DNA from: a gamma proteobacterium symbiont of Stewartia floridana
Lineage (GTDB): Bacteria > Pseudomonadota > Gammaproteobacteria > Chromatiales > Chromatiaceae
Direction: 5' to 3'
Length of the DNA: 64,000 nt
Assembly: GCA_003676145.1 (NCBI GenBank)
Contig: NAUB01000030.1
Location: forward strand, 1 to 64,000
A program made the translations under genes and the position numbers. Positions 21,735-54,229 of this stretch are shown here, piece after piece. Numbering within the stretch: the first letter of the stretch is position 1; every line of letters begins with the position of its first letter. The notes under the pieces were generated by a model. The model did no database searches, was not told the origin of the DNA, and worked only from the letters and a program-made list of their open reading frames with translations.

Positions 21735-21781
21735 GCCGTATGAAGTTCAATAACAATTTTAAACGACAGGATAATCATCCC

Positions 21782-22936
21782 ATGTCGGCAACTCAGCAGC
21801 TGATCAATAATCAATCATACAAGCTTAAAGCGGCATCATTAACCGGCATTATCGTTGCCGGTATGTTATACGCCGATAAATGTAGAGCGGAATATGGTAT
21901 CAATTTCCCTCCTCCGGCCGCTGATGTTGCCCAGGAGATCTATGACATCCATATGCTGACGATGCAGATCACAACGGTGCTGTTACTGATCGTTTTCGGC
22001 TTCGTCTTCTACTCCCTCTACTATCATCGAAAAAGCCGGGGCTATCAGGCAGATCAGAACTTCCACAACTCCTGGTTTGGCAACTGGTCCTGGGTGGTCG
22101 TTCCCGTGATGGTACTGGGCGTGGATCTCACGATTGCCGGTAAAGCGGATGCGGTACTGAAAAAGGTCTGGGATGTGCCGAAAGAGGAGAATATTCTGGA
22201 TGTCAAAGTGACCGGCCATCAATGGTGGTGGGAATTTGACTATCTGGATCATGACATCAAGGTGGAAAGCCGCTATGTACCTGAAAAGGAATCGGGAGAT
22301 CTCTATCTGAGAGAGGTCGACAATCGCCTGGTATTACCGACTGGACAGAAAATACGCTTTCTGCATACCTCGGCTGATGTCTTGCACGCCTTCTGGGTAC
22401 CGGAACTGGCGGTAAAAAAAGATGCCATTCCCGGATATGTCACCGAAACCTGGGCTGAGTTGAATCGTGAAGGTGTCTTTCGCGGCCAGTGCGCAGAACT
22501 CTGTGGCACCTGGCACTCGCGTATGCCGATCGTGGTTGAATCCGTTTCGCCACAACAGTTTGCCGCCTGGGTCGATGATCAAAAAGCCATCAAGGTCGCA
22601 GCGGCGGCTGAAGCCAGTGCAGACAAGACCTGGAGCATGGACGAGTTGATGGCGAAAGGAAAAACCCTTTACGACACAAAATGTGCCGCCTGCCATCAGG
22701 TTAACGGTGTGGGGCTGCCACCCGCCTTCCCTGCATTGAAAGGCTCGCCAATGGCAACCGGATCCATCGAGGCCCACCTGGAGATCGTCATCAAAGGTAA
22801 AGAGGGTACCGCGATGCAACCCTGGGGCTCACTCAACGATCTTGAAATTGCGGCCATCGTGACCTACGAAAGAAACGCCTGGGATAACAATACCGGCGAT
22901 GTGGTGCAACCTTCAGATGTGAAGCAGGCGAGATAG
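21782..22936 (+). CDS. coxB: Cytochrome c oxidase subunit II with C-terminal cytochrome c
   Basis: Subunit II accepts electrons from cytochrome c through its CuA centre and passes them to subunit I. I start at the ATG at 21782 (AGGATAAT upstream), giving 384 residues; TTG at 21731 and ATG at 21740 are alternatives. A signal peptide (to about residue 35), two transmembrane helices, and a periplasmic CuA domain follow, with copper ligands in the CAELCGTWHSRM motif. A cytochrome c domain is fused at the C-terminus (CAACH heme motif, axial Met probably in SPMATG or AMQPWG). The fused heme c means the enzyme is a caa3-like variant that carries its own electron entry point. Lies nine bases ahead of coxA. 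Confidence 0.95.
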   Translation: MSATQQLINNQSYKLKAASLTGIIVAGMLYADKCRAEYGINFPPPAADVAQEIYDIHMLTMQITTVLLLIVFGFVFYSLYYHRKSRGYQADQNFHNSWFGNWSWVVVPVMVLGVDLTIAGKADAVLKKVWDVPKEENILDVKVTGHQWWWEFDYLDHDIKVESRYVPEKESGDLYLREVDNRLVLPTGQKIRFLHTSADVLHAFWVPELAVKKDAIPGYVTETWAELNREGVFRGQCAELCGTWHSRMPIVVESVSPQQFAAWVDDQKAIKVAAAAEASADKTWSMDELMAKGKTLYDTKCAACHQVNGVGLPPAFPALKGSPMATGSIEAHLEIVIKGKEGTAMQPWGSLNDLEIAAIVTYERNAWDNNTGDVVQPSDVKQAR

Positions 22937-22950
22937 AGGAGAGTTTGAAC

Positions 22951-24546
22951 ATGACCACAACCACCTTGAACCACGATGAAGCGCATCATCATGATATGCC
23001 AACCGGCTGGCGTCGTTGGCTGTTCAGCACCAACCATAAAGACATAGGAACGCTCTATCTGCTGTTTGCCCTGGCGATGCTGTTTATCGGCGGCGCAAGC
23101 GCCATGCTGATCCGCTTGGAACTGTTCCAGCCAGGTATCCAGTTACTCGATCCGGATCTCTACAACAATCTGGTGACCAATCATGCCCTGATCATGATAT
23201 TTGGCGCGGTTATGCCAGCTGCGGCAGGATTGGCAAACTGGATGATTCCGATGATGATCGGCGCACCGGACATGGCCCTGCCAAGGATGAACAATCTCAG
23301 CTTCTGGATTCTTCCGGCCGCTGCAACCATGTTGATTCTCTCCTTTGTAGTACCTTTCTTTCCTGGTGGCGGTACCCAGATCAATACCGGATGGACCCTC
23401 TATCCGCCACTCTCAGTTCAGGTTGGCATGTCGATGGATTTTCTTATCTTCGCCATTCATCTGTTGGGTATCTCCTCAGTACTGGCCTCGATCAATATCA
23501 TTGTCACTCTGCTGAACATGCGTGCACCAGGCATGACGTTGATGAACATGCCGATGTTCTGCTGGACCTGGTTGGTAACCGCTTTTCTCCTGATTCTGGT
23601 AGTACCGGTACTGGCCGGCGGTGTCACCATGCTGCTGTTCGACAGACATTTCGGCACCAGCTTCTTCGATGCAGCCGGTGGTGGAGACCCGGTGTTGTTT
23701 CAACATCTTTTCTGGTTCTTTGGTCATCCGGAAGTCTATATCCTGCTGTTGCCGTCAATTGGTGTGCTCTCCCATGTGATTCCAGCTTTTTCGCGCAAAC
23801 CCCTGTTCGGCTATAAGTCGATGGTTGGCGCGATGTTGACCGTAGCCACCATCGGTATGGTGGTATGGGCCCATCATCAATACACCATCGGAATGTCGTT
23901 GGGCGCGGTAACCTACTTTATGATCGGGACCATTCTGATCTCCATCCCGGTGGGTCTGATGATCTTCAATTTCATCGCCACCATGTGGCGCGGCGCCATG
24001 ACCTTTGAAACACCGATGCTGTTTGCGGTGGCCATCGTTCTGATGTTCACATTCGGAGGATTGAGTGGCGTTATGCTGGCTGTGGTTCCAGCCGATATGC
24101 AGTATCACGACAGTATGTTCGTTGTTGCCCATTTCCACTACGTGTTGATGCCAGGCGCTGTATTCGGACTGTTTGCCGGTGTTTTCTACTGGCTACCCAA
24201 GTGGACAGGTCATATGTATGACGAAACCCTGGGCAAGATCTTTTTCTGGACCAATGTAATCGGTTTCAACATCACATTCTTCCCGCAGCACTTTCTTGGT
24301 CTGGCTGGCATGCCGCGAAGAATCGTCGACTACAACATGATGTTTACCGAGTTCAATGTCATCTCCAGTATCGGCGCGATCATTTTCGGTCTGAGCCACC
24401 TGTTGCTGCTCTATATCGTGATTAAAACCATTCGTGGCGGAAAGAAAGCTGAAAGCAGAGCCTGGGAAGGCGCCAAGGGCCTGGAATGGGAGTTGGATTC
24501 ACCGCCCGCATTCCACACCTGGACTGTTGCGCCACAAATCAAATAA
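22951..24546 (+). CDS. coxA: Cytochrome c oxidase subunit I (aa3 type)
   Basis: The catalytic subunit reduces O2 to water and pumps protons. I start at the ATG at 22951, preceded by GAGGAGAG; a TTG two codons earlier is possible. The 531-residue protein has about 12 transmembrane helices and all metal ligands: the low-spin heme His in LVTNHALIMIFG, GHPEVYIL in helix VI (His plus cross-linked Tyr), HH in WAHHQYTIG, and HFHYV in helix X. The Glu in GHPE marks a type A1 oxidase. It sits in the operon between coxB and the small gene at 24559. Oxidase of this kind supports respiration at high oxygen. Confidence 0.97.
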   Translation: MTTTTLNHDEAHHHDMPTGWRRWLFSTNHKDIGTLYLLFALAMLFIGGASAMLIRLELFQPGIQLLDPDLYNNLVTNHALIMIFGAVMPAAAGLANWMIPMMIGAPDMALPRMNNLSFWILPAAATMLILSFVVPFFPGGGTQINTGWTLYPPLSVQVGMSMDFLIFAIHLLGISSVLASINIIVTLLNMRAPGMTLMNMPMFCWTWLVTAFLLILVVPVLAGGVTMLLFDRHFGTSFFDAAGGGDPVLFQHLFWFFGHPEVYILLLPSIGVLSHVIPAFSRKPLFGYKSMVGAMLTVATIGMVVWAHHQYTIGMSLGAVTYFMIGTILISIPVGLMIFNFIATMWRGAMTFETPMLFAVAIVLMFTFGGLSGVMLAVVPADMQYHDSMFVVAHFHYVLMPGAVFGLFAGVFYWLPKWTGHMYDETLGKIFFWTNVIGFNITFFPQHFLGLAGMPRRIVDYNMMFTEFNVISSIGAIIFGLSHLLLLYIVIKTIRGGKKAESRAWEGAKGLEWELDSPPAFHTWTVAPQIK

Positions 24547-24558
24547 GCAGGAGTGGTA

Positions 24559-24711
24559 ATGAGAATACCGAGATATCAAACACCGGAGCTGAGAAATAAG
24601 AATGTCCGCCTGGCCTGGGTGCTGGGCGGCATGGCGATTTTCTTCCTGGTTACCTCCTTTCCATTCTGGACAGGCCTGTTCCGCATCGTAGGCACCCAGG
24701 CAATGCCATGA
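24559..24711 (+). CDS. Small single-pass oxidase-operon protein, 50 aa
   Basis: This 50-codon gene starts at ATG 24559 after a GCAGGAG ribosome binding site and ends by a TGA that overlaps the ctaG start codon (ATGA at 24708-24711), so translation is coupled. The protein has a basic N-terminus (MRIPRYQTPELRNKNVRLAW) and one transmembrane helix (about 20-40). Short membrane proteins between coxA and ctaG are common in proteobacteria and are thought to act in subunit assembly; the exact family is not recognised. Its position and spacing make it a real gene that length cut-offs easily miss. Confidence 0.8.
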   Translation: MRIPRYQTPELRNKNVRLAWVLGGMAIFFLVTSFPFWTGLFRIVGTQAMP

Positions 24712-25334
24712 ACAAGAGCGGTAGCGGAGAGAACAGGAACCGTCGCACCACCCTGCTGCTGAGTGGCCTGGTGGTGGGCATGTTCGGTTTTGGTTTCGCT
24801 CTGGTACCCCTGTATGACCTGTTTTGTGAAGTGACTGGCACGCAATCCCTGTCGCAACGAAAAATCAATCCTGCTGATCTTCAAGTGGTTAAACAAGTTG
24901 AAAGTGACAGGTTGGTAACCGTGAAATTCGATGCCACGGTAAATCCGAATCTGCCCTGGGATTTTCAGGCAGCAACCCGCAGCATGCGGGTACATCCGGG
25001 CAAGACCTATGAAGTCAATTTTGTCGCCCGCAACCGCAGTGGTGATGCGGCGACCGGACAGGCAATTCCCAGCGTTGCCCCCTGGCAGGCCACCCCCTAT
25101 TTCAGCAAACTGGAGTGCTTCTGTTTCAACAAGCAGACCCTGGACGGCAATCAGCAGACCGACATGCCGCTCAGGTTTATGGTATCCCCTGACCTGCCAG
25201 CGGATATACAGTCGCTTACCCTGTCCTATAGTTTTATGCGTTTAAAAGCCTCCAAAAACAAAACGGATCTTTCGAAACTGCTACCGCAAATCGCCAGGCA
25301 GTCGGCAACTGAAAACACTTTACCCAATCGATAA
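24708..25334 (+). CDS. ctaG: Cytochrome c oxidase assembly protein CtaG/Cox11
   Basis: Cox11-type proteins deliver copper to the CuB site of subunit I. The 208-residue product has a short basic N-terminus, one transmembrane helix (about 13-36) and a periplasmic immunoglobulin-like domain. The copper-binding motif CFCF is present in FSKLECFCFNKQTL, and the following MPLRFMVSPDLP segment is typical of the family. The start codon overlaps the stop of the small upstream gene. coxC follows 47 bases later. Length and motif are normal for the family. Confidence 0.95.
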   Translation: MNKSGSGENRNRRTTLLLSGLVVGMFGFGFALVPLYDLFCEVTGTQSLSQRKINPADLQVVKQVESDRLVTVKFDATVNPNLPWDFQAATRSMRVHPGKTYEVNFVARNRSGDAATGQAIPSVAPWQATPYFSKLECFCFNKQTLDGNQQTDMPLRFMVSPDLPADIQSLTLSYSFMRLKASKNKTDLSKLLPQIARQSATENTLPNR

Positions 25335-25381
25335 CCGATGACAATCAATCAAACAAAACTCATATCGGGGAGAGAATTATA

Positions 25382-26254
25382 ATGTCAGCAAAGGAGCATA
25401 GTGGGGACTACTTCATACCCGATCCAAGTCCCTGGCCAATCATCGGCATGTTTTCACTGTTAATCACCCTGTTTGGTGGTGCTCTGGCGATGAACGGAGT
25501 CTCCCTGGGCACCTATCTGGTGGTTGCAGGCCTGTTGATGTTCTTCTACCTGCTGTATGGCTGGTTCAGGGATGTAATCAAGGAGAATTTGAGCGATTGT
25601 TACAATCGTCAGGTGGATACCTCTTTCCGCATGGGCATGTTCTGGTTCATCGCCTCGGAAGTATTCTTCTTTCTCAGCTTTTTTGGCGCACTCTACTACA
25701 TTCGGAATATCGCCCTGCCCTGGCTGGGTGGCGATGGCTATCTCGGTGTAACCAACGAGATTCTCTATCACGGTTTTGAAAATGTCTGGCCGTCCCATGG
25801 TCCGGGAGAGCTGGGTGGTGAATTCAAACCGATGGGTGCCTGGGGAATTCCTGCAATCAATACCCTGATACTGCTGACCAGTGGTGCGACCATTACCTGG
25901 GCCCACTGGGGTTTGAAGCTGGACAACCAGAAACAGCTGGTAAACGGACTGATCGCAACCATTGCCCTGGGGGTCTTTTTCGTCATCCTTCAGGCTTATG
26001 AATATGGGCACGCCTATCAGGAGCTCAACCTGACACTGGAGACCGGAGCCTACGGCTCAACCTTTTATATGCTAACCGGATTCCATGGATTCCATGTGAC
26101 CATGGGGGCGGTGATGCTGATGGCGATCCTGGGCCGAAGTATGAAAAGCCATTTCAGCGCGCACAACCATTTCGCCTTCGAGGCCGTAGCCTGGTACTGG
26201 CACTTTGTGGACGTCGTGTGGCTTGGTCTGTTTGTGTTTGTCTATTGGTTGTGA
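25382..26254 (+). CDS. coxC: Cytochrome c oxidase subunit III
   Basis: Subunit III stabilises the oxidase core in the inner membrane and binds lipids. The ATG at 25382 follows GGGGAGAG. The 290 residues form seven transmembrane helices with the family patterns FRMGMFWFIASEVFFFLSFF and the C-terminal FHGFHVTMGAVML and AVAWYWHFVDVVWLGLFVFVY, in which the Glu and His residues conserved in all COX III proteins are seen. It is the last structural gene of the operon; the next gene is on the opposite strand. Confidence 0.96.
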   Translation: MSAKEHSGDYFIPDPSPWPIIGMFSLLITLFGGALAMNGVSLGTYLVVAGLLMFFYLLYGWFRDVIKENLSDCYNRQVDTSFRMGMFWFIASEVFFFLSFFGALYYIRNIALPWLGGDGYLGVTNEILYHGFENVWPSHGPGELGGEFKPMGAWGIPAINTLILLTSGATITWAHWGLKLDNQKQLVNGLIATIALGVFFVILQAYEYGHAYQELNLTLETGAYGSTFYMLTGFHGFHVTMGAVMLMAILGRSMKSHFSAHNHFAFEAVAWYWHFVDVVWLGLFVFVYWL

Positions 26255-26282
26255 GCCTGCTCACGACCCATTTCAAACTGAA

Positions 26283-26504
26283 TCAAGGTGCTAGGCCATG
26301 AGGTGTAAGCAGACCAAAAAAGTAACCGACCATGAGAATGGCAAACAACAGTAATGAGAGCGTCACCCGGATGGTCAAGGCGCGTACCACGCGGGTGCTA
26401 CTGTTCTTACCGTCATCCTTCGCCATGTAGTACATTCCCTGAAAGAGGGAGATGAGTATGAATAACAGAACCAGAAGTACAGGTAATTTAAAGATAATGT
26501 CCAT
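26283..26504 (-). CDS. DUF2909 family twin-helix membrane protein
   Basis: This 73-residue protein has two transmembrane helices (about 5-27 and 44-66) joined by a charged loop (YYMAKDDGKNSSTRVVRALTIR), the standard DUF2909 layout. Such proteins are regularly found among cytochrome oxidase assembly genes. GAGGA precedes its ATG at 26504. It is oriented against the surrounding oxidase genes, leaving a 28-base gap to coxC and sharing an 80-base divergent region with the SURF1 gene. Role unknown; oxidase assembly is plausible from context. Confidence 0.8.
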   Translation of the reverse strand: MDIIFKLPVLLVLLFILISLFQGMYYMAKDDGKNSSTRVVRALTIRVTLSLLLFAILMVGYFFGLLTPHGLAP

Positions 26505-26584
26505 GATTATGTCCTCTTCTGAGGTACCGATGAAATACCGGTCTTCACTCTGTTTTAATTAAGGATGTTTCAAATATAGTTGTT

Positions 26585-27316
26585 ATGACAAGCAGTACCC
26601 GGCAATTTCGCGCTCAAACAATCCCTACAGTTGTTATGGTAATAGTAACTCCCCTATTATGCAGTCTCGGATTCTGGCAACTCGAGCGTGCCGAGCAGAA
26701 ACGCAGCCAGGCGACTGCCTTGGAGATGCGCCGTAAGATGCCTCCCATCTCATTAACCGATTCTGCACGCGCCGAAGCGGATCAGCTTCTCTACCGACAG
26801 GTAAAGCTGCAAGGTGAATTCCTGCCAGAGAGGACCATCTTCATTACCAATCGCAAACACCTGGGTAAAACCGGTTTTCACGTGGTGACACCTCTGCAAC
26901 TGTCAGAAAATGGCGAACTGGTCCTGGTGAATCGTGGCTGGACAGCAGCAACGCCGTCCACAGACAAAGAATCACTGGCCAACAGCCGTGGCCAGCTGAG
27001 CATAAGTGGGGAGATCACCATTCCACAAGCCCCGGCCATAGAACTAACTCCAAGCGACGACGACAGTCAGTTACCGCCACACTGGCCCTACCTGACGCTG
27101 GAGCGATATCGTCAATGGTCAGGGCTGGAGGTATTACCCATACTGGTACTTCAGACATCGGAAGATGATAAGAACTTCATCCGCCAATGGCCAACACCGA
27201 AAGTCAGCGATCTGATGCATATCGGCTATGCCATCCAGTGGTTTGCTTTCGCCATCATCGCTCTGCTTGTCTGGCTGCGTCTCTCCTATCAAAAGGTGTC
27301 AAACGAAACCGCATGA
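26585..27316 (+). CDS. SURF1 family oxidase assembly protein
   Basis: SURF1/Shy1 proteins help insert heme a into subunit I of aa3 oxidases. The 243-residue protein has the typical arrangement: an N-terminal transmembrane helix (about 12-30, with LGFWQLERAEQK after it), a periplasmic domain containing HVVTPLQL and LVNRGWTAA, the LEVLPILVLQ segment, and a C-terminal helix (HIGYAIQWFAFAIIALLVWL). The final codons overlap the start of the Sco-like gene (ATGA at 27313). It begins a second sub-operon of three assembly genes. Confidence 0.93.
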   Translation: MTSSTRQFRAQTIPTVVMVIVTPLLCSLGFWQLERAEQKRSQATALEMRRKMPPISLTDSARAEADQLLYRQVKLQGEFLPERTIFITNRKHLGKTGFHVVTPLQLSENGELVLVNRGWTAATPSTDKESLANSRGQLSISGEITIPQAPAIELTPSDDDSQLPPHWPYLTLERYRQWSGLEVLPILVLQTSEDDKNFIRQWPTPKVSDLMHIGYAIQWFAFAIIALLVWLRLSYQKVSNETA

Positions 27317-27957
27317 ACAGTCTGGCCCAACAACCCCCAGCTACACGCAATCTGATCTCGTTATGGATCCTGGTTGCGATTACTGCACTACCACTGATCG
27401 CCGCCTGGCTGTTTTTTCTGAATCCACAATGGCTGCCGTCAGGCAGGACACATCATGGGGTGTTGATCGATCCCCCCAGAGCGGTGGCATCAATCGATCT
27501 CAAAACAACCGATCAGATGAGCTTTGACTGGCAAACCCTTGACGGCATGTGGACACTGCTGGTGATCAGCGAACGAAGTTGTGATGCCGCCTGCCTGGAA
27601 ACCCTGATCAAAGTCCGCCAGATACGCAGAGCCACAGCGGCCAACAGACAGCGCATTGCCCGTGGGCTGATCATCCTGCCGGGGAGCGACGGAAGTCTGC
27701 AGACACCCTCCCTCGACGGTCTTGACGGCACCCATCTGCTGATAGCCGATGATGGCCAGCAGAGCGCCGTTAGAACACTCTTTCCACAAGCTGAATTCGA
27801 AGACAGCGTACCGATCTTTATTGTCGATCCCAGAGGTGACTTGATGATGCGATATGACACCCCCCAGGTCACTTCCAAACAGATTCTCAAGGATCTGGAA
27901 CGCCTGCTCAAGGCTTCACAAACCTGGTCCCAAGGAGGTCAATATGGCCACCAGTGA
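27313..27957 (+). CDS. Sco-like thioredoxin-fold oxidase assembly protein
   Basis: The ATG at 27313 overlaps the SURF1 stop, which fixes the start and yields 214 residues. One transmembrane anchor (about 17-37) precedes a periplasmic thioredoxin-like domain. A CxxxC pair in SERSCDAACLETL matches the copper-binding pair of Sco proteins, but the distal His ligand of true Sco proteins is not seen: the equivalent region reads EDSVPIFIVDP. Copper binding may therefore be weaker, or the protein may work as a thiol reductase for the CuA site. Proteins of this kind commonly sit between SURF1 and ctaA/ctaB. It overlaps ctaB by 14 bases. Confidence 0.8.
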   Translation: MNSLAQQPPATRNLISLWILVAITALPLIAAWLFFLNPQWLPSGRTHHGVLIDPPRAVASIDLKTTDQMSFDWQTLDGMWTLLVISERSCDAACLETLIKVRQIRRATAANRQRIARGLIILPGSDGSLQTPSLDGLDGTHLLIADDGQQSAVRTLFPQAEFEDSVPIFIVDPRGDLMMRYDTPQVTSKQILKDLERLLKASQTWSQGGQYGHQ

Positions 27958-28846
27958 TCTTACCGCTCGCCAATCCGTTGGTTTCGCCTGGCAGCACTAC
28001 TATGAATTGACCAAACCCAAGGTGGTGTTGTTGATCGCCTTTACCGCGCTGGTCGGCATGCTGTTGTCGAAACAGGGCATAGTCCCCTGGCAACCGATGC
28101 TGTTCGGGTTGCTCGGCATCTCTTTGGCAGCGGCCTGTGGGGCGGTGGTCAACCATATCGTCGATCAGCGGATTGATAAAATGATGGACCGTACCCAGCG
28201 TCGGCCGATCCCAAGCGGCCATATGGATAGCCAGCATGCGGGCAGTTTTGCCCTGCTTCTGGGAACGGTTTCGATCTCCATGCTCTACTTTCTGGTGAAT
28301 CCGCTGACCGCCCTGCTGACATTCCTGGCATTGATCGGATATGCGCTGATCTATACCCGATTTCTGAAACGCTCTACACCGCAGAATATCGTCTGGGGTG
28401 GCTTGGCCGGTGCGGCACCTCCACTGCTCGGCTGGGCTGCGATTACCGGCGAGGTGACCATTGAGGCCTTCCTGCTGATGTTGATCATCTTTGTTTGGAC
28501 CCCACCCCACTTCTGGCCACTGGCGATTCACCGGCGTGATGACTATGCCAAGGCTGACATTCCCATGTTGCCGGTAACCCATGGTGTCGACTTTACCAAG
28601 CAGCAGATTCTGATCTACAGCATCATGCTCGTGGCTGTCACCCTGCTGCCCTTCGTGATCCATATGAGCGGCTATCTCTATTTGAGCGGCGCCATTGTGC
28701 TCGGTATTGGTTTCGTCTATCACGCGGTCAAACTGCTGCAGAGCCCGGGCCGTACCCATGCCATGAAGACCTTCGGCTACTCGATCCTCTATTTGAGCCT
28801 GCTTTTCACCCTGCTGTTGGCAGATCACTACATCAGGTTGATCTGA
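27944..28846 (+). CDS. ctaB: Protoheme IX farnesyltransferase (heme O synthase)
   Basis: This UbiA-superfamily enzyme transfers a farnesyl group to heme B to make heme O, the precursor of heme A. The ATG at 27944 follows a strong AAGGAGG site, giving 300 residues. Nine or so transmembrane helices are seen. The first Asp-rich motif is NHIVDQRIDKMMDRTQRRP, and the YTRFLKRSTPQNIVWGG and WTPPHFWPLAI segments are diagnostic. In many relatives ctaA precedes ctaB; here ctaA is missing from the cluster and found at 52254. Its product supplies CtaA with heme O. Confidence 0.96.
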   Translation: MATSDLTARQSVGFAWQHYYELTKPKVVLLIAFTALVGMLLSKQGIVPWQPMLFGLLGISLAAACGAVVNHIVDQRIDKMMDRTQRRPIPSGHMDSQHAGSFALLLGTVSISMLYFLVNPLTALLTFLALIGYALIYTRFLKRSTPQNIVWGGLAGAAPPLLGWAAITGEVTIEAFLLMLIIFVWTPPHFWPLAIHRRDDYAKADIPMLPVTHGVDFTKQQILIYSIMLVAVTLLPFVIHMSGYLYLSGAIVLGIGFVYHAVKLLQSPGRTHAMKTFGYSILYLSLLFTLLLADHYIRLI

Positions 28847-46055: not shown

Positions 46056-46380
46056 TGGATAAGCTTCACAATACTGATGTCACTTCTATCCGGTAGTTAC
46101 CTACGCAGATATCTGTTCAATAACATACCTAGGAAATGGCAGTAGATCCAGGGCAGATGTAATAGAATGTACTTTTGTTATTACGTTCTACATATATCAA
46201 TAACAATTTCTATACTATTTAAGGCTGGCATACACCTCGCATGAACCAGGAATACCCCAAAATCAACCTAACAATTTTCATTGATCTGTAACCATCAATG
46301 ATGTGGTTTGATGTGGTATCGTATAGTTGTTATTCAGTGGTTTAAAATAAAATTATGTTTACAAGACAGGACTCTTGATC
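46056..46380. other. Divergent intergenic region
   Basis: Some 325 bases between nudF and the prenyltransferase gene. It is AT-rich and includes a short direct repeat (two copies of TGATGTGGT near 46300-46317). No gene or clear promoter was found. Confidence 0.4.
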
Positions 46381-47274
46381 ATGCCTTTCCTGGTTGTAGG
46401 TGTTACCCGCCCAAACTTCCTGATTCTGACACCAATCTGTGTCTCATTAGGTGTAGGAAGTGCGCTTCTATCGGGTTTTCCCATCACTTGGGGAGTCGTT
46501 GCAATCGTATTGCTCGGGGCCTTGATGGCCCACGTCAGCGTCAACGCCTTGAATGAGTATTTCGATTTCCATTCTGGTTTGGACGCTAAAACCGATCGAA
46601 CACCCTTTAGCGGGGGTAGTGGTACCTTGATCATACAACCGCATCTTGCACCTCAGGCGCTAATCATCGGTGCAATCTCCCTGCTGATTACGCTGGCCTG
46701 TGGACTCTATCTGATACAGGTATCGGGCTGGGGATTGATACCCATTGGTCTTATTGGCATTTTGATCATCATCACTTATACCAGCTGGATCAATCGTTAC
46801 CGCTTTCTGGTGTTAATCGCTTCAGGCTTCTGTTTTGGTCCATTGATGGTGATCGGCACCCACTACGCGCTGACAAGCCAGCTATCCATCGCAGCTTTGT
46901 TACTCTCTCTTACCCCCTTCTTCCTGGTTAATAATCTTCTTTTTTTGAATCAAATACCCGACATCGATGCTGACCGCAGCATCGGGCGGAATAACTATGC
47001 AATCTCCTGGCAAGCGCCGAAACGTGCCCGACTGTTTTTGGCTTTCAGTCTGGCGGCCTATGTTGCCATCGTTTCAGGGGTCATGCTGGGTCACTTACCG
47101 ATGACTGCCCTGCTCTGCCTGCTGACCATCGGATTGGTTTACAAAATATATGTGGTCATAAAAAGAGAGACCAGCGACCGGGATCAACTGATCGCAAGTC
47201 TGGGCCGGAATGTCATACTGACATTGCTTACACCGAGTCTGATTTTTATCGGCATCCTGATGGATACCCTATAG
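46381..47274 (+). CDS. UbiA-family prenyltransferase (MenA-like)
   Basis: The ATG at 46381, following AGGA 10 bases upstream, gives 297 residues with about nine transmembrane helices. Two Asp-rich motifs characteristic of the superfamily are seen: NALNEYFDFHSGLDAKTD (near 58-75) and NQIPDIDADRSIGRNN (near 188-203). These bind the Mg-diphosphate of a polyprenyl donor. The relative order is closest to 1,4-dihydroxy-2-naphthoate or related aromatic prenyltransferases (MenA), but a quinone-pathway neighbour is absent, so the acceptor is unknown. The first motif is NxxxD(x)5D rather than the strict NDxxDxxxD. The gene stands alone. Confidence 0.85.
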   Translation: MPFLVVGVTRPNFLILTPICVSLGVGSALLSGFPITWGVVAIVLLGALMAHVSVNALNEYFDFHSGLDAKTDRTPFSGGSGTLIIQPHLAPQALIIGAISLLITLACGLYLIQVSGWGLIPIGLIGILIIITYTSWINRYRFLVLIASGFCFGPLMVIGTHYALTSQLSIAALLLSLTPFFLVNNLLFLNQIPDIDADRSIGRNNYAISWQAPKRARLFLAFSLAAYVAIVSGVMLGHLPMTALLCLLTIGLVYKIYVVIKRETSDRDQLIASLGRNVILTLLTPSLIFIGILMDTL

Positions 47275-48524: not shown

Positions 48525-49583
48525 ATGAACCTGCGTCATCTTGGTAGATTTTTCGACAGAAACTCCACCAGTGTCGATATGGGGAACCGTAATGGTCCCT
48601 TCGGCATGAAATTCAATACCGGTAAAGTCGTCCTTGACGCCAGAGGTGGTAACGACAAAATCCATGTCCATCAAAATATGGATGGTTCAGTCAAAGTAAA
48701 TGTCAATGGCAAGGATTACAATTTTACCGCTGAACAGGCAAAAAACCTGGTCATCAAAGGCGGCAGAGGAAACGACACCATTACTATGTCAGGACACCAA
48801 CTCTATGGTCCCAAAACCAGCATAACAATCGATGGTGGGAAAGGAAATGACACCATCTATGGCAGTTGTGGCGATGACAAACTGATCGGTGGAAAGGGTA
48901 ACGATACAATCTATGGAGGTGGCGGCAACGACTACATCAATGGTGGCAAAGGCAGCGACAAGCTCTATGGAGGTTGTGGCAATGATCGAATTGTTGGTGG
49001 TAAAGGTAACGACACCATTAAAGGTGGTTGTGGCAACGACTCGATCAGTGGAGGTAAAGGCAGAGATTCAATCCACGGCGGTTGTGGCAATGACTCCATC
49101 AGCGGTGGCAAGGGTAACGACCGGATCTTCGGTGGTCACGGTAATGACTCCATTCGTGGTGGTAAAGGTAACGATACCATCGATGGCGGTTGCGGTAATG
49201 ACAACATCCAGGGTAACAAAGGCCGGGACCGGATCTTTGGCGGTTTTGGTAACGACACCATTCATGGTGGCAAGGGGAGTGACACTATTTACGGTCAGTG
49301 GGGCAACGATCTCATCATTGGCGGTAAAGGCAACGACACCATCGATGGTGGCAGTGGAAATGATCGAATCCAGGGCAACAAAGGCCATGACCATCTGCGC
49401 GGAGGATCCGGCAACGACATCATCCATGGAGGCAAGGGGTGGGATCTTCTGGTTGGTGGAGATGGCCATGATTACCTGAACGGCGGGAAAGGCTGGGATC
49501 GCATCATACAAGGTAATGACGACCAACGTTCCACCATGCCGGTCGGGCCCGGTATGATTCTGAAACATATTTCTGCCCGCTAA
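48525..49583 (+). CDS. RTX-like protein of 25 uninterrupted nonapeptide repeats
   Basis: AGGAG precedes the ATG at 48525. The 352-residue protein has a 103-residue N-terminal part with some beta-roll-like segments (ARGGNDKI, GGRGNDTI) and then 25 tandem GGxGxDxUx nonapeptides (residues 104-328), which bind Ca2+ and fold into a beta-roll. A 24-residue tail (QGNDDQRSTMPVGPGMILKH and four more) ends it. In the variable third position of each repeat, all 13 odd repeats have Lys, while even repeats carry C, G, C, C, C, H, C, F, W, S, S and D. There is no Sec signal, catalytic or adhesive domain, nor nearby type I secretion genes. RTX proteins are usually exported by type I secretion; that is inferred here. 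Confidence 0.85.
   Translation: MNLRHLGRFFDRNSTSVDMGNRNGPFGMKFNTGKVVLDARGGNDKIHVHQNMDGSVKVNVNGKDYNFTAEQAKNLVIKGGRGNDTITMSGHQLYGPKTSITIDGGKGNDTIYGSCGDDKLIGGKGNDTIYGGGGNDYINGGKGSDKLYGGCGNDRIVGGKGNDTIKGGCGNDSISGGKGRDSIHGGCGNDSISGGKGNDRIFGGHGNDSIRGGKGNDTIDGGCGNDNIQGNKGRDRIFGGFGNDTIHGGKGSDTIYGQWGNDLIIGGKGNDTIDGGSGNDRIQGNKGHDHLRGGSGNDIIHGGKGWDLLVGGDGHDYLNGGKGWDRIIQGNDDQRSTMPVGPGMILKHISAR
48834..49508 (+). repeat. Tandem 27-base repeat (25 units)
   Basis: The nonapeptide coding repeats form an uninterrupted array of 25 units of 27 bases. Units are degenerate at synonymous positions, so the array is not a recent amplification; a two-unit (54-base) periodicity follows the Lys/other alternation. Confidence 0.85.
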
Positions 49584-50056: not shown

Positions 50057-50464
50057 ATGCCTGTAATATTTTCACTGCTTCTTCTCATATTCGCATTAAC
50101 AATTCAAGCGGAAGAGATTCCGGAGAATGAAGTATTGACCTTTGATGACCCAATACCCGGATCTCTCTACCTAGAATTCCCCGATGCGGATGATCTGCTG
50201 CCTAAGAAAGGTGATTTCAAAGTCATCAGCAGTCTCTTCATGAGCAACCAGTTAGGTGAACGCTGGGCGACTTTGACCCTTCTGAACCAATCGTCATCCC
50301 AGCGCCTGTTGGACCGGCACTATATCGTTGCCCTGTTCGCTGACGGAGAAAAACGACATCCCATCGATATCGAACATACCTTTTACGGCAAAGAACAGAT
50401 CACCCTGACCATCAACTTTGGCAAGAGTAAATTCCCAATCCTGCGTACCGAGGCTAGAAACTAG
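50057..50464 (+). CDS. Secreted hypothetical protein, 135 aa
   Basis: The ATG at 50057 follows AAGGAAG. Residues 1-18 are a signal peptide (MPVIFSLLLLIFALTIQA, cleavage before EEIPENE). The mature acidic protein of about 117 residues is strand-rich (KVISSLFMSNQLGERWATLT, HYIVALFADGEKRHPIDIEH, QITLTINFGKSKFPILRTEA) and lacks Cys. It could be an immunoglobulin-like or chaperone-type periplasmic domain. No family is recognised. It converges with the oxidase-like gene, six bases from its stop codon. Confidence 0.65.
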   Translation: MPVIFSLLLLIFALTIQAEEIPENEVLTFDDPIPGSLYLEFPDADDLLPKKGDFKVISSLFMSNQLGERWATLTLLNQSSSQRLLDRHYIVALFADGEKRHPIDIEHTFYGKEQITLTINFGKSKFPILRTEARN

Positions 50465-50470
50465 CTTGGC

Positions 50471-51841
50471 TTACCTGCCACGTATAAATGTGCGCAGCAT
50501 AATCCATACAAAGAGGACTCCACCGATCACCGCCAGTAATCCACCGATACCCATAACACCCATCGATGCTTTGGCCCAGACACTTTCCAGACCCTGAGCG
50601 GTTCCTGCTGTTTTTCGTTGAATACCCATCAAGCCGGATGCGGCCAGACCACTGATATGCAACAGTTGGCCAATACCATAGATCCAGGGTTGCAGTTCGA
50701 CCATCCGGCCTTGAGGCAATGGATAGCCCAGTTTCGGCAGGATAAGATATCCCAACCCCATCAGGCCGAGAGTCACACCGACAATCGAGCCATGATAGTG
50801 AGCCGGGATCATAGTATTGAGACCTGAAATGAAGAGTGCCAATGCACCACCGGAGAAGAAAAGCAGCAGAGACATCCAGAGTGCGGCACGTAACGGTTTA
50901 TATTCGGATGCCGATCGATCAGCACGAATCAATCCACTGAGTAGTAATAACCCTGCGGGGATTACGGCAAGGCCTCCAGCATATTTCATCAAATCAGTAA
51001 ACGCCGTCCTCGATTCCAGGCTCACTGTTCCATGAACCATATAGATGACCGGCGTGATCAATACCGGCACAACACCGATCATCAAAATCCAGGCATACCA
51101 TCGTGAACTCCCTGGCAGAGTTACTCCACTGGCGCGTGCCAGGAGAATCCATGCGAGAATGACCAATTGGGTATAAGCAAACTGTAAGCTGTGCCCTGCC
51201 CCCCAAAACAGATACTCATAGAAGGCATGCCCCTCCACCTCGTCAGGCATCTGCAACCCTGCAATCAGCAGAGCCAATAGGGAGATCACGATCGCCAACG
51301 ATACAGTCCAGCTGGCCAGGCCGGGAATATCCGGCTTGGCACCCAACCACTGTCTGGGGCGAAAGCTGGACAGACGAATCATTGCCTGCAGAGTAATGCC
51401 AATTCCAAACAGCCCCAGCATGAGGAAAAATCCCGGGCGCTGCAGAACCGGCACATAGTTATTCATCAATGGCGCGCCATCGCCAAAAAAAGCCGAGACA
51501 GCAATGCCCAAAGCACCACCCAGTGCTGATAGATAGGCGATCGATTCAATAACCCGAAATCTGTTCTCATCCGGAGAGGTCAGACACCAGACCAGTGCAC
51601 TCATCGCCAGGAACCAGATCAACACAGATTGATCTACATGGATAACCAGGGCGGTTTTGAAGAAATCTATCCAGATAAAAAAGACTTCGCTTCCAGGAAC
51701 CCGGGAAAGTACCAACAATATTGCAAACAGACCTGCCAGCGCCAGGGCCAACACACCCAGTTGCAGCCATCTGAGCGCCATCTTTTGTCTGTGCTCGCTG
51801 GCGGCCTGCAGTGCAAAATCCTCACTATCGGAAGGAATCAA
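50471..51841 (-). CDS. Stand-alone heme-copper oxidase subunit I-like protein
   Basis: This 456-residue protein has about 12 transmembrane helices in the layout of heme-copper oxidase subunit I. Candidate heme ligands are H68 (helix II, LVIHVDQSV) and H348/H350 (helix X, IPAHYHGS), which match the canonical HxH. For the CuB site, H217 (FWGAGHSLQF) and H270 (VIYMVHGT) are present, but the usual adjacent HH pair in helix VII is a single His, and the Glu/Tyr of the GHPEVY motif are missing. It has no subunit II partner nearby. It is divergent from ctaA and SCO, so it is probably a metalloprotein of respiration whose activity (oxidase, NO reductase or chaperone) is unknown. Confidence 0.75.
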   Translation of the reverse strand: MIPSDSEDFALQAASEHRQKMALRWLQLGVLALALAGLFAILLVLSRVPGSEVFFIWIDFFKTALVIHVDQSVLIWFLAMSALVWCLTSPDENRFRVIESIAYLSALGGALGIAVSAFFGDGAPLMNNYVPVLQRPGFFLMLGLFGIGITLQAMIRLSSFRPRQWLGAKPDIPGLASWTVSLAIVISLLALLIAGLQMPDEVEGHAFYEYLFWGAGHSLQFAYTQLVILAWILLARASGVTLPGSSRWYAWILMIGVVPVLITPVIYMVHGTVSLESRTAFTDLMKYAGGLAVIPAGLLLLSGLIRADRSASEYKPLRAALWMSLLLFFSGGALALFISGLNTMIPAHYHGSIVGVTLGLMGLGYLILPKLGYPLPQGRMVELQPWIYGIGQLLHISGLAASGLMGIQRKTAGTAQGLESVWAKASMGVMGIGGLLAVIGGVLFVWIMLRTFIRGR

Positions 51842-52253
51842 CGTGAATAATCTCCAGTTAGGATTGAGAGGTTAAGTCCGGTAACAGGTAATAGTTGTCT
51901 GCATAGGCATCTTATGCCAGGCGCCTAGTCGCTCAATCGGCACCGATTTCCAACATCTCAGCGGGCCCGGCTTAGCAACGCTTCGGGATACCGTCATTGA
52001 CACCTACCGACAGGTTCCATGCAGTTGGTGTTTATAATAATCAAAAAGTTAGGGGCTTCAAGCATGAGCTAGTAGAAATCCGTCGACTCGCCGGTATATA
52101 GCGGGAGCAAAACAACCTGGTGTTTGATTTGACTCACCTTCGGCACTCATATTAGGCTGAGATGATTATAATAAGCTGCAGTGGCAATGAAGTTAATTTC
52201 CCCATCTCACACAGGATGCGAGCAGCCGTCTCACCCATAGTGTTGAGGAGACC
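51842..52253. other. Divergent intergenic region before ctaA
   Basis: About 410 bases between the oxidase-like gene and ctaA. A TATAAT at 52167-52172 could be a -10 box for ctaA, but no -35 box stands at the right distance. No gene is seen. Confidence 0.4.
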
Positions 52254-53261
52254 ATGCGGAAAGACCCGGCCCTGCTGTTTCGAATTCAATATCGTCTAGT
52301 CCTGATGACCTGTCTGCTGGCATTTTGCGTCATACTGCTTGGCGCCTATGTGCGGCTTTCGGATGCCGGTCTTGGTTGTCCGGACTGGCCTGGCTGTTAC
52401 GGACAACTCATCGTACCCAGTGAATCGGCTGAGGTGGTCTCAACCGAGCAGACATTCGATCAGGCAAAAGCCTGGAAAGAGATGATCCATCGCTATATGG
52501 CAGGCACCTTGGGTCTGTTCATATTGCTCCTCGCGATACTCGCCTGGACAAATCGGACAATCGCCCGTCAACCTGTAGTACTCCCTGGCATACTGCTTTT
52601 GCTGGTAATATTTCAGGCTCTGCTTGGGATGTGGACTGTAACCCTGCTGGTCAAACCAGCCATCGTCACCGCCCATCTGCTGGGTGGTTTTGCCACCCTC
52701 GCCCTGCTCTGGTTACTGTTGCTAAGACTGCGACCCATCGACCCTCTGCACACAGTGGAGACCAGCGCTCCCCTCAGGCGATGGATTCACTTCTCGCTTT
52801 TCATACTATTGATTCAGATCACGCTGGGTGGCTGGACCAGTACCAACTATGCCGCACTGGGTTGTACCGATTTTCCGACCTGCTATGCCGGTCAATGGTG
52901 GCCTGAAATGGATTTTAAAGAGGCCTTTGTGGTCTGGCGTGGTCTGGGTATCAACTATGAATTCGGGGTTCTGGAAACTGAAGCCCGCACGGCTATACAC
53001 GTGACTCATAGAATGGGCGCCCTATTAACCTTAATTACTCTGGGTGTATTAATCTACTGGTTGACAAGGAAGAGCTCAGCACGTGCATTGCAAAGCATCG
53101 GATATCTGCTTACATTAATCCTCATATTGCAAATCGGCCTGGGTATCACCAATGTTTTAGGTCATTTACCCCTGAATGTTGCAGTCGCTCACAATGGTGG
53201 CGCAGCGATTCTACTATTAATTTTGGTGACACTGATCTGGGTATCGAGAAAACGGGAATAG
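52254..53261 (+). CDS. ctaA: Heme A synthase (CtaA/Cox15)
   Basis: CtaA oxidises the methyl group of heme O to the formyl of heme A. The start at 52254 follows GAGGAG. The 335-residue protein has eight transmembrane helices and two sets of heme-ligand His, in KEMIHRYMAGTLG, TAHLLGGFATLAL, IHVTHRMGALLTL and VAVAHNGGAAIL. Two Cys pairs, LGCPDWPGCYG and LGCTDFPTCYA, flank the extracellular loops as in Cox15. It completes the heme A pathway with ctaB at 27944, 24 kb away. It is followed three bases later by the SCO gene. Confidence 0.95.
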   Translation: MRKDPALLFRIQYRLVLMTCLLAFCVILLGAYVRLSDAGLGCPDWPGCYGQLIVPSESAEVVSTEQTFDQAKAWKEMIHRYMAGTLGLFILLLAILAWTNRTIARQPVVLPGILLLLVIFQALLGMWTVTLLVKPAIVTAHLLGGFATLALLWLLLLRLRPIDPLHTVETSAPLRRWIHFSLFILLIQITLGGWTSTNYAALGCTDFPTCYAGQWWPEMDFKEAFVVWRGLGINYEFGVLETEARTAIHVTHRMGALLTLITLGVLIYWLTRKSSARALQSIGYLLTLILILQIGLGITNVLGHLPLNVAVAHNGGAAILLLILVTLIWVSRKRE

Positions 53262-53264
53262 CAC

Positions 53265-53930
53265 ATGACGGAAAACGCCACCCCCCGCCTGGGGATAACT
53301 GCATTGCTGGGAATTTCTGCCTTGCTTGCTGGACTGCTGGTTTGGTCATACCTGCAAGGCTCCAAGTCCGAACAATCAAGCCAGCCTTTGGCAACCGAAC
53401 AGGCAACCCTGCTTCCTGAATTACGTTCCCTGAAGCCATTCTCTCTCTCCAACCACAATGGCGAGACATTCGACAATCAAAGTCTGCTCGGACAATGGAC
53501 ATTCATGAGCTTTGGCTATACCTACTGTCCGGATGTCTGCCCTACCACCATGTCTCTGTTCAGTGAAATGAACGACCTGCTGAAAAGTCAGCAGCACACC
53601 GATCCTTACAAGATCACATTCGTTTCCGTGGATCCTCAGAGAGACTCGCTGGAACGACTCGCAGAGTATGTCACCTACTTCAATCCGGAGTTCATCGGAG
53701 CCACTGGACCGGAACCGGCAATAGCGAAATTGACCAAACCACTGGGCATTCTCTACCAACGGGTTGAAACCGAGGACAGCGCCATGGGCTATGTGATAGA
53801 CCACTCTGCCTCAATCATTCTTGTCGATCCGCAAGGCCAATACCACGCCTATTTCAGTCCACCCCATGATCCACAGAAAATGGCCAATGACTTTATCAAC
53901 ATCACTGGCCATGCCAGACTGAGTAAATAG
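53265..53930 (+). CDS. SCO1/SenC family copper chaperone
   Basis: SCO proteins deliver copper to the CuA site of subunit II. The 221-residue product has an N-terminal anchor helix (about 10-30) and a periplasmic thioredoxin-fold domain. The copper ligands are all present: C88 and C92 in YTYCPDVCPTT and H180 in VIDHSASIILVDP. It starts three bases after ctaA and shares its operon. Compared with the Sco-like protein at 27313, this copy has the full set of ligands, so it is probably the functional copper donor. Confidence 0.93.
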   Translation: MTENATPRLGITALLGISALLAGLLVWSYLQGSKSEQSSQPLATEQATLLPELRSLKPFSLSNHNGETFDNQSLLGQWTFMSFGYTYCPDVCPTTMSLFSEMNDLLKSQQHTDPYKITFVSVDPQRDSLERLAEYVTYFNPEFIGATGPEPAIAKLTKPLGILYQRVETEDSAMGYVIDHSASIILVDPQGQYHAYFSPPHDPQKMANDFINITGHARLSK

Positions 53931-53932
53931 CT

Positions 53933-54229
53933 GTGAATGACCTGATAAAAGGCAGATGTTGGCAGTGTGGCCATGAACTGCAGACGGCCGATTATGGTCG
54001 TGAATCCGGCTGTCTCGCCTGCAGCAAACCGACTCGGGTCTGCCGTAACTGCCGTTGGTATGCTCCCGATCGCCCCAATCAATGCGAAGAGCCCGGGGTC
54101 GAACGGGTGCTTGATAAAGAGAAAGCCAATTTCTGCGAGCTGTTTGAGCCAACCATGGAGCCATTGACTGAGAAATCAACTCAGTCAGAGGATTCGTTGC
54201 GCCAGGCCGCTGAGGACCTATTCAAGTAA
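53933..54229 (+). CDS. Zinc-ribbon protein, 98 aa
   Basis: A GTG at 53933, two bases after the SCO stop, opens a 98-residue protein. Four CxxC-like clusters appear at the N-terminus: GRCWQCGHEL, SGCLACSKPT, RVCRNCRWY and a later NFCELFEP, a pattern that would bind one or two zinc ions. The C-terminal 35 residues are acidic and probably helical. No family is recognised. Position suggests co-transcription with ctaA and SCO, and perhaps a role in the metal supply of the oxidase, but this is inference. Confidence 0.7.
   Translation: MNDLIKGRCWQCGHELQTADYGRESGCLACSKPTRVCRNCRWYAPDRPNQCEEPGVERVLDKEKANFCELFEPTMEPLTEKSTQSEDSLRQAAEDLFK

Follow-up and report, generated by a model that had tools for sequence, protein, structure and literature searches.

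A conserved heme-copper oxidase subunit I-like protein lacking a CuB site, and its possible place in cytochrome biogenesis

The stretch of DNA that we analyzed as a whole, called the window here (64,000 nucleotides from a gammaproteobacterial symbiont of Stewartia floridana), carries a gene whose product resembles subunit I of the heme-copper oxidases (HCOs) and yet seems to lack part of the copper (CuB) site. This raises the question of what such a protein could do. A sequence-only reading had proposed that it might be a diverged oxidase or NO reductase or, alternatively, a heme-handling protein in which oxygen reduction has been lost.

The open reading frame is intact, running on the minus strand from a TTG start at 51841, which is preceded by a GGAG stretch, to a stop that ends at 50471 (Table 1). 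The Pfam COX1 profile (PF00115) matched residues 21-426 of the 456-aa protein (E 2.7e-13; 50 bits, cut-off 34.8), and a match over most of the length places it in the HCO superfamily as a subunit I. More distant members of what we call the short family can score under this cut-off (31.4 and 29.2 bits), and the L185 copy has no match. NCBIfam held no model matching either the 456-aa protein or its homologue at L028, and a phmmer search of the PDB with the 456-aa protein alone returned no match. Values of dN/dS could be computed for two of four pairs of relatives, the other two being saturated at synonymous sites; in these two close pairs they were 0.08-0.10, indicative of purifying selection, and on these values we rejected the reading of the gene as a pseudogene.

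Table 1. Positions in the window of the short gene, its key codons and the assembly genes discussed in the text
Feature	Position	Strand	Remarks
Copper-less HCO subunit I-like gene (short family)	50471..51841	minus	456 aa; PF00115, AF2, fold, dN/dS
H68 codon, low-spin heme ligand position, helix II	51638..51640	minus	His 102/102
H217 codon, helix VI His at first CuB ligand position (W-x-x-G-H)	51191..51193	minus	102/102; aligned to ba3 FWWTGHP
I266-Y267 codons, where the nearest catalytic relatives have the helix VII HH pair in the alignment	51041..51046	minus	His 0/102, 23/102
H270 codon, single helix VII His of the sequence-only reading, not conserved	51032..51034	minus	His 17/102
H348-Y349-H350 codons, high-spin and low-spin heme ligand positions, helix X	50792..50800	minus	HYH 102/102; aligned to ba3 PGHFH
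R409-K410 codons, equivalent of propionate-binding Arg pair	50612..50617	minus	R and K 102/102
Intergenic region between the short gene and divergent ctaA, 412 bp	51842..52253		
ctaA, heme A synthase	52254..53261	plus	PF02628, E 1e-78
SCO1/SenC copper chaperone	53265..53930	plus	PF02630, E 2.1e-41
Small CxxC-rich zinc-ribbon-like protein	53933..54229	plus	No family over cut-off; matched within 2.5 kb in 9/102 loci
aa3 oxidase operon: subunits II and I, ctaG, coxIII, SURF1, PA0111-family protein, ctaB	21746..28843	plus	tblastn with references

That the protein would adopt the full subunit I fold is well supported by modeling: AlphaFold2, given 29 family sequences, returned a model with a mean pLDDT of 89.2 and a pTM of 0.91. 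VIA-align matched this model to the aa3 subunit I 6adq_F with Z 30.9 over 420 residues at 3.3 A, to RdNOR 4xyd with Z 29.4 and to ba3 1ehk with Z 28.4. Among the matches listed, both Foldseek and VIA-align gave HCO subunit I throughout, and these matches do not separate the HCO types. A profile of the short family, searched against the sequences of solved structures, found 19, of which 18 were ba3-type subunit I and the other was 7deg, and its alignment set H68 against the ba3 helix II His, H217 against FWWTGHP and the HYH motif against PGHFH.

We compared residues in a single alignment of 102 non-redundant short relatives, which remained from the 132 loci that yielded a protein after those below 400 aa (L021, L036 and L185, of which only a fragment had been extracted) were left out and near-copies removed. 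All three heme-ligand His, one in helix II and two in helix X, are present in every relative, and H68, H217, H348 and H350 do stand at subunit I positions, as the sequence-only reading had assigned them, each being His in 102/102. Heme binding by H68, H348 and H350 would follow from membership of the family. The other invariant residues are Y129, P131, W213, G216, R409 and K410, and Q220 is kept in 101/102. The R409-K410 pair, whose counterpart in the aa3 and sNOR-like rows is RR, we take to bind heme propionates, as in the family. Such conservation of residues in several phyla is more than chance would produce.

The CuB site proved incomplete: the helix VI His is kept, whereas the helix VII His-His (HH) pair is absent at the ligand level from all 102 relatives. 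Aligned against the nearest catalytic relatives, the first HH position is never His and the second is His in 23, with the register of helix VII uncertain by about 3 residues because the aa3 rows shift their HH by that much in the same alignment. Across the helix VII region, 49 members have no His, 49 have one, 3 have two and 1 has three; the sole HH dipeptide (L023) is placed by the alignment early in the region, off the ligand level. H270, at the end of a short predicted helix (263-270 in the model), had been noted as the single His of helix VII, and here the earlier reading needs correction: its column is His in only 17/102 and elsewhere mostly Tyr or Phe, so we rejected H270 as a remaining CuB ligand. 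Counting position 267 or 270 together brings the rows with a His to 39. We also searched the alignment of 102 for a third CuB ligand and found none conserved, and with the HH pair missing the short family lacks the three-His non-heme metal site of NO reductases. The Glu and Tyr of the GHPEVY motif are likewise gone from the protein, as previously noted; the residue four after H217, a Tyr in oxidases, is Phe in 82/102 members and Tyr in 1/102, a test that covers the helix VI position only, while C family oxidases carry their active-site Tyr in helix VII.

The nearest named relative is from Candidatus Thiodiazotropha (98%), which makes this genus the probable origin of the window, and the family extends well beyond it. 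A scan of a collection of species genomes gave 71 pattern matches and 32 loci encoding short relatives, from lucinid symbionts, Sedimenticola, Thiosymbion and other Gammaproteobacteria to Myxococcota/'Deltaproteobacteria', Verrucomicrobiota, a Spirochaetia MAG and Gracilimonas. Profile searches recovered the gene from 41 of the 147 genomes in the same order and, as a separate gene at E 1e-20, from 57 of the 398 in the phylum, two of the 59 matches in the latter set having been dropped (G521, partial, 75 bits; G304, a 115-residue fragment). In a careful maximum-likelihood tree of 33 rows, which holds no qNOR, gNOR, nNOR or reference eNOR rows, the 12 short rows formed one clade (100/100) apart from the A, B, C and cNOR rows and sister to six complete 'long' sNOR-like subunits (the pair 100/99, the long rows 96/88). 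A quick tree of 54 rows, which flagged long branches meeting, gave the same sister group, and the careful tree with B-family rows added agreed. We tested in the tree for placement within a known active oxidase family, and it did not occur; given their own clade, we rejected the short proteins as members of the cbb3, aa3, ba3 or cNOR rows. The short family appears to descend from a common ancestor with subunit I of the B-family NO-reductase-like (sNOR type) enzymes and to have lost the helix VII ligands. One MAG titled Akkermansia muciniphila (L025) carries an sNOR-type short with a subunit II and groups near another Verrucomicrobiales MAG in the tree; its title may be misassigned.

The long subunits carry GHxxQQ, HH and HxH (the plasmid row L197 has no HxH by the pattern used), and next to them is a subunit II, in 8/8 sequences with a complete set of CuA ligands, followed by SCO. 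The label sNOR-like comes from the order of the genes, subunit II - subunit I - SCO, together with the named plasmid loci, and not from a tested reference sequence. This order matches the norSY-senC of two publications (PMC4940428, PMC6967387). One of the plasmid loci, in Thermus, lies near nirS and an Rrf2 regulator, and another, in Defluviimonas, beside cyoE, SCO and cytochrome b. The long subunits may instead be eNOR, since Gln has been given as the eNOR residue and Asn as the sNOR residue (PMC8756737). Against 72,556 plasmids, the L028 short query found nothing and the long query found 51 records; three inspected plasmid operons with the long subunit had no short gene, which speaks for the plasmid loci only, as a chromosomal short is possible.

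In the window, no subunit II adjoins the short gene, in agreement with the sequence-only reading, and the only one recognized belongs to the aa3 operon about 21.6 kb away. That operon has its subunit I at about 22951-24543 and one small minus-strand gene inside it. By motif, the three other PF00115 genes of the source genome are an aa3 subunit I, a cbb3-type subunit and a cNOR NorB. The reported divergence of ctaA, SCO and the zinc-ribbon-like gene from the short gene is borne out by their positions and, for ctaA and SCO, by Pfam; the 412-bp intergenic region holds two weak promoter-like matches on the minus strand, with 0.6 expected. Of the plus-strand genes on the other side, the nearest (50057-50464) encodes a 135-aa secreted-looking protein with no family match; it faces the short gene in convergent orientation and is retained at L005 and L006. 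Beyond it are genes for an RTX calcium-binding repeat protein (48525-49583, 352 aa, PF00353 in nine stretches), with clustered ORFs of unequal length in L005 (388 aa) and L006 (278 aa), and for a UbiA-family prenyltransferase (46375-47274; PF01040, 93 bits), distinct from the ctaB of the aa3 operon.

We counted neighbors within 2.5 kb at the 102 non-redundant loci, and these counts are lower bounds because, among all the loci gathered, 30 from the search of the order and 29 from that of the phylum carry only about 1.5 kb per side, and less at contig ends. The commonest partner in proteobacterial branches is ctaA, found at 45/102 loci (38 divergent, 6 co-directional and 1 convergent); the matches are 0-24 bp apart in five of the six co-directional pairs, and at L158 the ORFs overlap. 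SCO occurs at 29/102 and ctaB at 18/102 (17 convergent), while CcsA, immediately upstream, occurs at 12/102 and ResB at 10/102, all co-directional. An sNOR-type subunit II, which may belong to the long subunit, is found at 15/102 loci, and the long subunit itself at 10/102. The neighbors are mostly genes of heme and cytochrome assembly, with ctaA, ctaB, CcsA or ResB at 61/102 loci; at least one reference neighbor, including the cytochrome b fusion, is present at 79/102, and 23/102 have no recognized neighbor in the flanking DNA examined.

These loci fall into recurring arrangements. In arrangement A, the short gene sits between ctaB-PA0111-SURF1-coxIII-ctaG-aa3 and ctaA-SCO, and the aa3 operon adjoins it in several relatives. 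A PA0111-family redox-active disulfide protein (a weak NCBIfam match) recurs between SURF1 and ctaB in aa3 operons (L016:10397-11041; window 27313-27954). Arrangement B has the short gene inside an sNOR-like operon, where it either precedes subunit II (Myxococcota, Verrucomicrobiota and Spirochaetota) or follows a cytochrome b gene (Proteobacteria); a fusion of cytochrome b, 4Fe-4S ferredoxin and FlpD of about 700 aa (L028:12816-14975 and relatives) is a steady member of such operons. In arrangement C, multiheme cytochromes, an NHL propeller, ResB and CcsA precede the short gene, and in the CcsA-linked loci inspected TPR repeats are fused to the short protein or lie in the next gene (L185). 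Arrangement D, in the f40 genomes, has the short gene just before ctaA. In G222 the short gene is divergent from ctaA, after which comes an aminotransferase-fold gene that, in our reading, resembles 5-aminolevulinate synthase (ALAS). One genome of the same family as the window (G139) carries two shorts, one by ctaA and the aa3 operon and the other by ResB/CcsA with a separate TPR gene (L185 and L186).

The idea that the short gene always neighbors ctaA and SCO did not survive this comparison. Most Thiodiazotropha loci have ctaA, SCO and the small gene alongside it, but the closest relative (L005:8001-9371, 98% identical) keeps the convergent neighbors without ctaA, SCO or the small CxxC gene, G127 has ctaA and short on different contigs (either case may reflect a rearrangement or an assembly fault), and other copies lie in sNOR-like or ResB/CcsA-multiheme cytochrome operons. 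The association with ctaA is visible at the level of whole genomes. Among the 147 genomes of the order, ctaA is present in 57, short in 41 and both in 40, so that ctaA is found in 40/41 short-bearing genomes versus 17/106 without short; the sole exception, G132, has a short open frame of 137 residues in a 530-contig assembly. By genus, short occurs in 11/17 with ctaA versus 0/31 without. Fisher tests gave p 2.8e-21 by genome and 5e-7 by genus, values that ignore kinship between genomes that are not phylogenetically independent. This linkage may reflect the aa3 oxidase instead of CtaA. Since 17/57 ctaA genomes have no short, heme A enzymes in general can do without it. Of 18 genomes checked, several of them incomplete, ctaA was not found in G005, G344, G284, G324, G304 and G320; G005 has the sNOR-type context, and G344, 93% complete, belongs to the TPR branch. 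If these two assemblies are believed, heme A is not the common substrate of the family.

What, then, might a protein do that has this predicted fold, an intact heme-ligand set, no conserved CuB site, its own clade and neighbors engaged in heme and cytochrome assembly? The reading that we favor, tentatively and at somewhat less than even confidence, is a copper-free, probably diheme HCO paralogue that serves cytochrome biogenesis by holding heme or donating electrons. Its structural side is well supported, and the functional side is what we infer from context. Judging from its ligands, the protein would bind two hemes, and it would help to mature heme enzymes and not act as a terminal O2 or NO reductase. 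In the source genome its partner would be CtaA, perhaps together with SCO, and the enzyme served would be the aa3 oxidase. It could do so (a) by mimicking apo-subunit I, so as to hold or pass on heme made by CtaA, or (b) by carrying electrons across the membrane to a heme-handling protein, CtaA here and CcsA in the TPR-bearing branch; for the ctaA-linked branch we slightly favor (a). Biogenesis is preferred mainly because of the TPR fusion beside CcsA/ResB and the adjacency to ctaA. A more specific scheme, which we regard as rather doubtful, makes the subunit I look-alike a dedicated carrier or template that takes heme A (or O) from CtaA into copper-free, oxidase-like pockets and hands it to apo-subunit I, the TPR-bearing branch being adapted likewise for System II cytochrome c maturation with CcsA. 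Of the options in the sequence-only reading, a heme-handling protein without O2 reduction seems to fit best, as the HH is missing, the active-site Tyr nearly always missing, and the neighbors are mostly genes of heme synthesis and delivery; the oxidase and NO reductase options fit less well.

Alternatively, the short protein may be an auxiliary electron-transfer subunit, a second, non-catalytic diheme protomer feeding an sNOR-like or aa3 enzyme. Arrangement B makes this a serious rival, if on the whole an unlikely one: in Myxococcota, Verrucomicrobiota and Spirochaetota loci short comes first, ahead of a CuA subunit II, the complete long subunit I, SCO and a fusion of cytochrome b and ferredoxin, and across the 398 genomes short is found in 28/29 with a long subunit versus 29/369 without. 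Within the sNOR-like operons of other phyla, an electron-transfer subunit is as likely as a role in biogenesis. However, the named plasmid loci have the long subunit without short, and no such enzyme is adjacent in the window or in the 12 CcsA-linked loci. Nor need short act in sNOR, since the PF00115 matches of G001 are one aa3-type subunit and short only.

We consider it improbable that the protein is a diverged but active oxidase or NO reductase with a metal site built from H217 and non-His ligands. The constancy of H217 and Q220 and the His at 267 or 270 in 39/102 would suit such an enzyme, but the first HH position is never His, nearly half of the members (49/102) have no helix VII His, Phe follows four after H217 in 82/102, and most ctaA-linked copies have no adjoining subunit II. 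A heme sensor or scavenger that binds NO, O2 or CO with H217 on the distal side is comparably improbable; gas binding would be plausible for a heme pocket that is intact, lacks copper and offers a single distal His, and the NOR-like kinship in the tree would suit it too, yet the family search found no signaling domain in the 456-aa form and the neighbors are assembly genes. The loss of catalytic residues from the family might also suggest a decaying oxidase relic, which is scarcely credible given the low dN/dS and heme ligands invariant across several phyla; conservation already disfavors it.

The HCO families named in the literature covered are catalytic. A broad, conserved lineage that keeps its hemes and drops its metal would show the oxidase fold reused for another task. 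In the titles and abstracts of the open literature searched, we met no HCO subunit I described as devoid of CuB ligands; a 2024 survey of sNOR and eNOR, outside that scope, may mention the lineage. This survey, by Murali et al., reportedly defined sNOR, gNOR, nNOR and eNOR. Often divergent from ctaA, and in this order almost confined to genomes that have ctaA, such a conserved mimic of the heme pocket offers a testable system. Because short genes score as COX1, they can also inflate counts of terminal oxidases. Part of a review of oxidase biogenesis names no subunit I-like factor (PMC9145763).

Among known assembly factors, Surf1, CtaA and CtaB share neighborhoods with the short protein, and ctaA co-occurs with it, although no family match links them to it. 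Compared with subunit I of the A family (aa3), the short protein has the same fold and the same three heme-ligand positions, but it is 12-15% identical in structural alignments and has no CuB site. The ba3 oxidases of the B family supply 18 of the 19 structure sequences found by the family profile and resemble it in fold (Z 28.4 to 1ehk), whereas the short protein lacks their HH and Tyr and falls outside the B clade. Its nearest clade is that of sNOR (norSY-senC), with which it has in common a W-x-x-GHxxQ motif in helix VI and an HxH motif in helix X. The sNOR-like long subunits, of about 570 aa, have the HH pair in 8/8 rows and a CuA subunit II in 8/8, while the short protein has no HH and, in the window, no subunit II; in several phyla, it is an sNOR-like operon that houses the short gene.
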